This document shows positions 17,742 through 20,190 of a DNA stretch of 64,000 bases, piece by piece. Source of the DNA: Methanolacinia petrolearia DSM 11571. Lineage in GTDB: Archaea; Halobacteriota; Methanomicrobia; Methanomicrobiales; Methanomicrobiaceae. A program made the translations under genes and the position numbers. The notes under the pieces were generated by a model. That model worked only from the letters and a program-made list of their open reading frames with translations, ran no database searches and was not told the DNA's origin. The DNA lies in contig NC_014507.1 of the NCBI RefSeq assembly GCF_000147875.1, forward strand, positions 682,001 through 746,000, written 5' to 3'. Positions within the stretch are counted from its first letter, which is position 1; the number at the start of each line of letters is the position of its first letter.

Positions 17742-17865
17742 TTTACCTTTACTATGTGATGAATCTCAATAATTGTTTTTCGGGTGCTCCATCCAAAGAT
17801 CTCCCCTCAAAAATTTCATAGAGTATTTTTTCTCTGGCAAAAGGATATTATGGGATGGAACAATA

Positions 17866-18420
17866 ATGTTCCATGTGGAACGAAATATCGGATATGAGAT
17901 TGTCATACATCTGCTTGAGTCCGACAGCCACCCGAGGAGGATAGCAAAGGATCTCGAAGTCCCGCATACAACAGTTATCCGTCGGCTGAAAGGTCTTTAT
18001 GACATGAATATTGTTGATTTCAGGGAGGAGGGGAAGAACAAGGTATTCTATCTTGAAGAAAGTCTTGAGGCAAGATCCTTCATCATCTCCGCGGAGATCT
18101 ACAAATTTACAAAAACCCTGGACTTATATCCCCGTTTAAGACCGCTTTTCAGTGCAATAATCAGGGATGACAGGATACATATGGCAATACTCTTCGGGAG
18201 TTATGCCCGGTGGGCCCCGACCTACAAGAGCGATATCGATATCTTTGTTGAAACAAAGGACAGGGAGATTAAAACCGGGGTGGAGAAACTCCAGTCGCGG
18301 GTTAGCGTCAAGATCGGTGATTTCGACCGGAACAGCGATCTTGTGAGGGAGATCGAGAGCAATCACGTAATAATCAAGGGTTTTGAGGATTATGTCGGAA
18401 AGACGCGAGTTTTACAGTAG
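17866..18420 (+). CDS. Winged-helix plus MNT nucleotidyltransferase (antitoxin-like)
   Basis: 184 residues from MFHVERNIGYEIV (ATG 17866). The frame is open from a TTG at 17773, but that extension is unlike a domain start. Residues 1-75: a winged helix (SHPRRIAKDLEVPHTTVIRRLKGLYDMNIVDF). Residues about 100-184: a minimal nucleotidyltransferase with the complete GSX10DXD motif (GSYARWAPTYKSDID). MNT proteins paired with HEPN partners can act as antitoxins, some by AMPylating the HEPN protein. The DNA-binding half suggests it also represses the operon. It overlaps the HEPN gene by 29 bases. Confidence 0.85.
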   Translation: MFHVERNIGYEIVIHLLESDSHPRRIAKDLEVPHTTVIRRLKGLYDMNIVDFREEGKNKVFYLEESLEARSFIISAEIYKFTKTLDLYPRLRPLFSAIIRDDRIHMAILFGSYARWAPTYKSDIDIFVETKDREIKTGVEKLQSRVSVKIGDFDRNSDLVREIESNHVIIKGFEDYVGKTRVLQ

Positions 18421-18868
18421 GATCTACAGGCAGGGGCACCTGAGGCCGGTTCCGCCGAGCATAGATATGAAGCGTGCCTACCAGAAAAAATCCGAGAGTT
18501 ATATCGTATCGGCAAGGATACTGTTCGAGAACGGGAAACTCGAAGAGGCTGTTTCGATGATCTACTACAGCATGTTCTATATGGTGCTCGCTCTTTTTTT
18601 CAGAACCGGCATAAAATGCGAGAATCATTCTGCCGCAATATATCTCCTCGAAGATCTGTACGGACTTGACAACAGTGCAATAATCCATGCCAAAAGCGAG
18701 AGGATAGACAAACAATATTATATCGATTTCAATCTAAACCGCGAGGATGTCGATGAGATGATGGGAGAGGCATATGATTTCAATGCATACATCATGGACT
18801 TTACCGAGAAGATGAAAGGCAGGGAGATTGAGAATTTCAGGAACATGTTCTTAGACCTTGTCAGGTGA
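18392..18868 (+). CDS. HEPN domain protein (toxin-like partner of MNT)
   Basis: 158 residues from MSERREFYSRIYR (ATG 18392); a TTG at 18383 is an alternative. All-helical HEPN fold: AYQKKSESYIVSARILFENGKLEEAVSMIYYSMFYMVLALF, then FRTGIKCENHSAAIYLL. The Arg-to-His spacing (seven residues) is longer than the classical R-x(4-6)-H ribonuclease motif, so toxicity is uncertain. Gene overlap with the MNT protein and a following T8 tract indicate a two-gene unit. It may instead be a regulatory pair linked to nucleotide sensing. Confidence 0.82.
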   Translation: MSERREFYSRIYRQGHLRPVPPSIDMKRAYQKKSESYIVSARILFENGKLEEAVSMIYYSMFYMVLALFFRTGIKCENHSAAIYLLEDLYGLDNSAIIHAKSERIDKQYYIDFNLNREDVDEMMGEAYDFNAYIMDFTEKMKGREIENFRNMFLDLVR

Positions 18869-18894: not shown

Positions 18895-18936
18895 ACGGAT
18901 ATCCGAAATATATTTATGTGCTACGGACAACCGTAG
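18895..18936 (+). promoter_or_regulatory. Twin operator-like sites around the TATA box of the MarR-methyltransferase gene
   Basis: Two sites fit ACGGA-NNN-CCG: ACGGATATCCG (18895-18905, containing the palindrome CGGATATCCG) and ACGGACAACCG (18923-18933, inside the dyad CTACGG-ACAA-CCGTAG, 18921-18936). They start 28 bases apart and flank a TATA-like AATATATTTATG. The start codon is only 4 bases beyond the second site, so the transcript is probably leaderless. The spacing suits a dimeric MarR-type repressor binding its own promoter. Confidence 0.7.
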
Positions 18937-18939
18937 TAT

Positions 18940-20190
18940 ATGCAGTTACACCCTGTAATCCGGCTTCGGCTTTCGCTTGGTTTCATTCAGTATGCATTGA
19001 ACCTGTTGTGGGAGGTTGACAGGGGGAAGAAGAGCCCTCTTTCTCCTGCAGCGATTGAAATCATATACACGGCCTACTTTCATCCCCTCTATATGGGAGA
19101 TGTGGCGGAGATGCTCGGGATAACCAGGAGTACTGCCACGGATCATATCAATTATCTTGAACGTGAGGGATATGTCCGCCGGGAATCCGACGGAAACGAC
19201 AAACGAAGGATCAGGGTGTTTGTGACAGAGAAGGCCGAAGAATGGGTTCTGTCGGTTGAAGAAAGATTGTTCGGCTATTTGGAAAAATGCCTTTCCCGTA
19301 TGACGAAGGAGGAGCAGGAGCAGTTTGCCTTATTGTCCACCCGGTTTACAGGAGTGTCCGATGACAGGACATTTGATGAAGCTATCAGGGGGATGAAAAA
19401 AAGCAGGGACGATTTCAGCGTACCGCTGCTCGAAAGGCGTGATGGGAGACTTCTGCGGCTTGAAGAAATGGCTGATGAGCGCTATCATGCGTTTGATGAT
19501 GAAGATACTAAAAAAAGTGATGAAATTATGTTTGAAAAAAGAATTCCGGAGACTGATGAAGGTATTCAGGATGAGTTTACGGTTGAGATCTATGATCAGA
19601 TGCAGAGAAATCTCCGTGATGCGGGACATCTCCCTTCGGAAGATTACATAAAAACCGGCATTGACTCGGGAGAGGTTCTTGAAATCGGTCCCGGGCCCGG
19701 TTATACAGGGCTTGAATGGCTTAAAGCTACAAAAGATACGAAGCTCACTGGCGTTGAAATCAGCCCGGAGATGATCTGCATGGCAGAAAAGAATGCATCG
19801 GATTATGGGATGTCCGGCCGGACCAAGTACGTGGAAGGAAATGCCATGAATATCCCTCTTGGCAATAACATGTTTGACGGAGTATTTTCCAACGGCTCCA
19901 TGCATGAGTGGGAGAATCCTGTTTCGGTATTCAACGAAATCGCAAGAGTGCTGAAACCCGGCGGAATTTTCTGCATAACCGATCTGAGAAGAGATCTCTC
20001 GGAAGAGATATACGAATACATGTATAATGCCTGTAGTCCTGAGGAGATTAGGCCGGGATTTAAGACATCGGTTATGGCTGCATATACCCCCGTTGAACTG
20101 GAGGAAATCCTTGCAGAGTCGGATCTTTCCGGGAAAGTAATCGGCCATCCATACGGGCTTGTAATCACAGGCCGGGCTGCAAAAAAGTAG
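18940..20190 (+). CDS. MarR-type regulator fused to a SAM-dependent methyltransferase
   Basis: 416 residues. Residues 1-145: MarR winged helix (YMGDVAEMLGITRSTATDHINYLEREGYVRRESDGNDKRRIRVFVTEKA). Residues about 145-210: charged linker. Residues 210-416: class I methyltransferase with LEIGPGPGYTGLEWL (SAM loop), GVEISPEMICMA, NAMNIPLGNNMFDGVFSNGSMHEWENP, and VLKPGGIFCITD. Transcription control and a methylation or SAM-sensing function seem combined in one chain. The substrate is unknown. Operator-like dyads lie immediately upstream. The gene stands alone; cobS follows 74 bases later. Confidence 0.87.
   Translation: MQLHPVIRLRLSLGFIQYALNLLWEVDRGKKSPLSPAAIEIIYTAYFHPLYMGDVAEMLGITRSTATDHINYLEREGYVRRESDGNDKRRIRVFVTEKAEEWVLSVEERLFGYLEKCLSRMTKEEQEQFALLSTRFTGVSDDRTFDEAIRGMKKSRDDFSVPLLERRDGRLLRLEEMADERYHAFDDEDTKKSDEIMFEKRIPETDEGIQDEFTVEIYDQMQRNLRDAGHLPSEDYIKTGIDSGEVLEIGPGPGYTGLEWLKATKDTKLTGVEISPEMICMAEKNASDYGMSGRTKYVEGNAMNIPLGNNMFDGVFSNGSMHEWENPVSVFNEIARVLKPGGIFCITDLRRDLSEEIYEYMYNACSPEEIRPGFKTSVMAAYTPVELEEILAESDLSGKVIGHPYGLVITGRAAKK

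Follow-up and report, generated by a model that had tools for sequence, protein, structure and literature searches.

A predicted self-repressed MarR–methyltransferase fusion in Methanolacinia petrolearia and a PadR-linked counterpart in anaerobic bacteria

A regulator–enzyme fusion gene and its promoter

The window analysed here, a stretch of 64,000 nucleotides, spans positions 682001-746000 of the chromosome (single contig) of Methanolacinia petrolearia, the present-day name of Methanoplanus petrolearius SEBR 4847T (PMC3035365; PMC4149034). It contains an open reading frame in which a MarR-type winged-helix part is joined through a linker to a class I SAM methyltransferase (MT), preceded by two palindromes (Table 1). 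An earlier note on this DNA had proposed such a fusion, and Pfam bears it out, with both domains exceeding their cut-offs in one polypeptide: MarR_2 (PF12802) at residues 34-90 with 42.6 bits (cut-off 27), MarR (PF01047) with 32.6 bits (cut-off 24.6) and Methyltransf_11 at residues 247-346 with 75.4 bits (cut-off 21.2). A PadR domain was absent from the polypeptide among the 25 Pfam families listed. No NCBIfam equivalog cut-off was reached by the MT, nor that of any NCBIfam MarR equivalog by the MarR half, whose helix-wing order in the AlphaFold model is that of the MarR family. Just upstream, at window positions 17773-18868, a nucleotidyltransferase gene overlaps a HEPN gene, an arrangement resembling an MNT-HEPN pair.

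Table 1 Features of the fusion locus, in window coordinates
Feature	Position	Strand	Basis
Operator O1, TTACGGATATCCGAAA, few mismatches to TTACGG-N4-CCGTAA	18893..18908	.	Sequence and conservation; predicted
TATA-like box, ATATATTTAT, between O1 and O2	18908..18917	+	Read from sequence; inference
Operator O2, CTACGGACAACCGTAG, 6-4-6 perfect inverted repeat	18921..18936	.	Sequence and conservation; predicted
MarR-MT fusion gene, 416 aa	18940..20190	+	ORF call, Pfam
MarR-type winged-helix part, about residues 1-155	18940..19404	+	Pfam MarR_2/MarR, AlphaFold secondary structure
Recognition helix, residues 63-75, and wing, residues 79-95, within MarR part			AlphaFold model secondary structure
Low-confidence linker, residues 156-199	19405..19536	+	Conservation and AlphaFold model
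Class I SAM MT part, residues 197-416	19528..20187	+	Pfam, conservation, AlphaFold model

Two matching sites 28 bases apart, bracketing a TATA box, had been described upstream of this gene. We recovered both matches to ACGGA-N3-CCG, at 18895 and 18923 and hence exactly 28 apart, with a TATA-like stretch of approximate bounds between them. This pattern alone is not rare, occurring three times in the window against 2.07 expected, and the weight of the twin sites therefore comes from the position of the pair and its conservation, not from the rarity of the pattern. Both sites are copies of a longer palindrome, TTACGGWTAWCCGTAA, of the type TTACGG-N4-CCGTAA, in which the inner 10 bp of O1 form a perfect inverted repeat and in O2 a 4-bp core is framed by six perfect pairs. 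O1 and the TATA-like stretch overlap where the 3' edge of the one touches the upstream edge of the other, whilst O2 lies just upstream of the ATG and of the predicted transcription start. Because the position of the TATA box predicts a start near the ATG, the leaderless transcript previously suggested is reasonable for the M. petrolearia gene, but this does not extend to all relatives, as those at loci L067 and L069 have a leader with GGAGG.

The MT half carries the signature R-x2-E-T-x2-GIQ ... E-x-G-x-G-P-G ... FSNGS-x-HEW ... D-x-R-R-D. In an alignment of 15 fused proteins the motif I residues E248, G250, G252 and G254 were invariant, as was E273, the acidic residue after strand 2 that is characteristic of class I MTs, and motif I was kept across 34 archaeal and bacterial MT domains; a loss of SAM-binding residues in homologues, which by the earlier note would have counted against its interpretation, was thus not observed. 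The whole-chain AlphaFold model was modest (pLDDT 67.6), with low confidence across the linker. When modelled alone with the 34 aligned sequences, the MT half reached a mean pLDDT of 93.4. By whole-domain TM-score its nearest folds were CouO and NovO (TM 0.80-0.83), which are methyltransferases of aromatic coumarins, and the TM of 0.83 against CouO (5m58) indicates a Rossmann-type fold; the fold search returned 1608 matches at E<=0.001, a superfamily so large that it carries little information on substrate. The catalytic pair of CouO is His120/Arg121 (PMC5289526). No equivalent His-Arg pair was evident among the invariant MT residues in the 34-domain sequence alignment, so that this sequence comparison lends no support to C-methylation in particular.

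Within the linker, the motif GRLLRLEE-x2-D-x-RY is near-invariant in fused proteins and partially retained in split MarR proteins, and has no confident structure in the model despite this near-invariance. It may couple the MarR and MT domains.

Other functional assignments were considered and rejected. The MT matches UbiE-like small-molecule families and not DNA methyltransferases, PADLOC matches to phage-defence components (mad2, Csa3) are confined to the generic MT or HTH region, and similarity to the corrinoid-associated CpaM stayed at 43.9 bits (cut-off 180).

Distribution of the fusion and of its operator

Intact full-length fusions were found in 19 of 199 Methanomicrobiales genomes, belonging to six genera and four families, with the homologues in the 18 genomes other than M. 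petrolearia sharing 52-99% identity; carriers include Methanospirillum stamsii, Methanocalculus taiwanensis and an uncultured Methanofollis. In genome contigs, an alignment query found 52 loci where a single-protein query found none. At L068, L075 and L077, and at L082 outside the order, a MarR gene is followed by a separate, adjacent MT gene, and these split neighbours suggest, by the Rosetta-stone argument, that the fusion originated by the joining of adjacent MarR and MT genes. Labels cluster in the MT tree, in which many forks are open, and one or several fusion events are both possible. Some methanogen relatives of the MT (L071, L072 and L076) are without an adjacent regulator or recognisable operator.

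No neighbouring gene was conserved beyond close relatives and none points to a substrate; the downstream cobS and sulfite-reductase-like genes adjoin the fusion in the same genus only. Two rearranged loci were also encountered. In a Methanocorpusculaceae genome (L069:6151-9112) the fusion gene is interrupted by an insertion of ~1.7 kb, probably an insertion sequence; an inverted CAGGCTGGGACA motif is common to its two ends, and a 553-aa reverse ORF lies inside it. In one Methanomicrobiales genome (L062:8945-13821), a block of 431-, 175- and 199-aa ORFs beside the fusion is tandemly duplicated.

Twenty fused relatives were scanned, one of them broken by insertion, and each has the palindrome no more than ~55 bp ahead of its start. 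Eleven of these have both sites, the second lying 27-29 bp downstream of O1, and nine have the upstream site only; the twin arrangement seen in M. petrolearia is thus genuine there but not universal. In most relatives O1 is followed by A+T-rich sequence. The palindrome also precedes the split MarR genes of L068 and L077, two of the four two-gene MarR-MT operons, whilst at L075 the operator-like site is weak, with 4 mismatches, and L082 has none of the palindrome type. Finally, at L083:8067-10086 the same operator (a copy with 2 mismatches) goes with a related MarR gene whose partner is no MT but an efflux gene of the DHA2/EmrB type (TIGR00711, 270.9 bits; cut-off 230.2), with which it shares 17 bp.

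We then counted the operator genome-wide. Perfect copies of TTACGG-N4-CCGTAA number 24 in the 199 Methanomicrobiales genomes, of which 15 are upstream of a MarR-MT family gene, 8 within coding sequence and 1 elsewhere between genes, the last with a different core. A phylum-wide count over 394 genomes gave 17 copies of the 14-mer TACGGWTAWCCGTA; promoters of the MarR-MT family account for 10 and gene interiors for 7. In the M. petrolearia genome, a pattern search that allowed <=2 mismatches returned no further promoter site. Other genes under the operator, which the earlier note had envisaged as co-regulated, were sought in the genome itself, the order and the phylum, and none was convincing. 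As the operator is found between genes almost only at promoters of its own family, the predicted regulon is a single gene. This points to a strictly local autoregulator as the parsimonious reading, with weak or half sites elsewhere being possible. The self-repression proposed in the earlier note is strongly supported as a prediction, given that the palindrome is conserved, placed at the promoter and without convincing further intergenic copies. No match for TTACGGWTAWCCGTAA was found in the open literature searched.

A free-standing methyltransferase and its PadR partner in bacteria

Besides the fusion, the MT is found on its own at 42-56% identity, among further methanogens as well as Clostridia, Dehalococcoidia, Spirochaetes, Synergistetes, Acidobacteria and Thermotogae. 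Archaeal and bacterial MTs share ~42-57% identity, and the free protein is 42-63% identical to the MT half of the fusion and shares its conserved FSNGS-x-HEW and D-x-R-R-D. Of the bacterial loci, 30 have a recognisable MT, and in 22 of them a PadR-type gene adjoins it, mostly directly upstream (one copy, in L167, is a fragment). Eleven Bacillota PadR-MT promoters, located upstream of the PadR genes of L162-L172 (except L167) and L189, contain twin AGTCAGTRCTGACT palindromes 19-26 bp apart that flank the -10 box TATAAT. Among 300 shuffles, none equalled any of the eleven; the consensus was taken from the tested sequences, and the independent evidence is its conservation. As read from sequence, the Bacillota PadR-MT promoter is a parallel to the methanogen design that uses an unrelated regulator. 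In one Spirochaetales locus (L191:777-2075), the MT is fused to a DUF6064 domain and a PadR gene lies upstream.

A proposed circuit, its rivals and known relatives

Both domains, a conserved SAM site, a conserved operator with no other credible target, and split as well as fused forms are present. The reading that we consider best, and hold with somewhat better than even confidence, is a self-repressed, inducible small-molecule MT in one polypeptide, whose inducer and substrate would coincide. The MarR half, presumably dimeric, would bind the TTACGGWTAWCCGTAA palindromes O1, at the TATA box, and O2, at the start codon, and would thereby keep its own transcription low, acting by repression rather than activation. 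The MarR half would be released from DNA by a small molecule, in all probability a toxicant or metabolite of hydrophobic or aromatic character; more fusion protein would then be made, and the C-terminal class I MT would methylate the inducer or a close relative, lowering its level until repression is restored. Detoxification would be the presumed purpose. Regulators of the MarR and PadR families respond to ligands, and many of them sense drugs or phenolics; this, the efflux gene under the same operator at L083 and the patchy distribution give indirect support to a role against xenobiotics or toxic metabolites. The fold kinship of the MT with CouO and NovO also speaks for the proposed reading. 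Speaking against it are the weak or missing operator at L075 and L082, the methanogen MT relatives at L071, L072 and L076 that lack both regulator and operator, the want of a conserved neighbour indicative of a substrate, and the lack of an evident counterpart to the His-Arg pair of CouO. Of the two roles for the enzyme raised in the earlier note, methylation of the inducing compound is the one favoured here, as a prediction.

The other, SAM as a signal, would make the MT half purely a SAM/SAH sensor and the protein a regulator responding to methylation status, as has been proposed for the ArsR-type SahR/SamR. SAM/SAH-responsive winged-helix repressors of methionine metabolism do exist (PMC4239095), and the SAM-site residues of the fusion are invariant. 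Yet the operator is found at no other promoter, SAM-cycle genes included, and hence defines no SAM-cycle regulon, and free-standing MT proteins keep the conserved residues of the MT half, as an enzyme would; a signalling role is therefore disfavoured, and we regard it as rather unlikely. A little less doubtful, though still unlikely, is that the protein does regulate itself but that inducer and substrate differ, with the MarR half sensing stress and the MT making or modifying an endogenous metabolite, for example a lipid-soluble cofactor or a quinone-like compound. Here the Spirochaetales fusion to the DUF6064 membrane domain fits a membrane-associated substrate, but the patchy distribution and the efflux-pump exchange at L083 fit accessory detoxification better.

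Two further explanations change the nature of the domains themselves. As in O-methyltransferase family 2, the winged helix could serve dimerisation and substrate binding instead of DNA-binding regulation, and the palindromes could belong to another regulator. The MarR domain exceeds its curated cut-off, however, a separate MarR gene occurs in operons, and the operator accompanies the MarR lineage even where its partner is an efflux pump (L083). We therefore find this improbable, even though the best matches of the whole-chain model are proteins that combine a winged helix with an MT, Rv2258c for one, at a large rmsd (14-17 Å) and a low TM (~0.34). An arsenic or metalloid MT of the ArsM type, coupled to a metal-sensing MarR, appears very improbable: the similarity to arsenite methyltransferase models, at 51.0 bits, is weak and far under the curated cut-off of 263, and the one cysteine that never varies among the fused proteins (C365) is not kept in bacterial MTs, leaving no conserved cysteine set.

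Returning to the self-repressed MT with a shared inducer and substrate, we tentatively extend it, with somewhat less than even confidence, to a single-gene feedback circuit in which the repressor would carry the enzyme that destroys its own inducer and would have its own promoter as sole target. Methanogens (MarR, TTACGGWTAWCCGTAA) and bacteria (PadR, AGTCAGTRCTGACT) would then have arrived at parallel solutions around one anaerobe MT family, perhaps with a common anaerobic substrate. For methanogens, this offers a defined and testable one-gene regulatory circuit, with protein, operator and prediction all within 1.3 kb. The MT family sits beside its own regulator in many anaerobes, the regulators coming from two unrelated families, and this coupling suggests a small-molecule challenge shared in anaerobic habitats. 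Because regulator and enzyme are joined, the identity of the inducer would probably reveal the substrate.

The earlier note had called this the best candidate for an undescribed system. Neither the MarR-MT fusion nor the PadR-MT operon is described in the open literature searched, but the fusion joins two known kinds of domain, and regulator-enzyme fusions are already a known kind, so that it represents no new class of system. Many fusions in Methanomicrobiales are reported by a screen of archaeal gene-fusion families (PMC11237513), which MarR-MT resembles in joining neighbouring genes; MarR-MT itself is not named in the main text of the study. With MarR autorepressors (MarR, MprA/EmrR, HpaR and OhrR types; PF12802/PF01047), the fusion shares the MarR domain, a palindromic operator over the core promoter and implied autoregulation, and their link to drug and phenolic response is echoed by its relative beside the EmrB-type pump at L083, but the fusion carries its own enzyme at the C-terminus. 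SahR and SamR are likewise winged-helix regulators tied to SAM chemistry; they are of the ArsR and not the MarR type, and as regulators of the SAM cycle they control many methionine genes (PMC4239095), whereas the operator of the fusion is restricted to its own promoter. The MT half has the class I Rossmann fold and conserved SAM site of the UbiE/Methyltransf_11-type small-molecule MTs (3dlc MMP1179, CouO 5m58, NovO 5mgz and RebM 3bus), yet is only 17-25% identical to these solved relatives and bears the distinctive N-terminal R-x2-E-T-x2-GIQ signature. The PadR-MT operons of anaerobic bacteria have in common with the fusion an orthologous MT, an adjacent regulator and, in Bacillota, twin palindromes around the core promoter, and differ in using PadR in place of MarR, another operator, and two genes rather than one.
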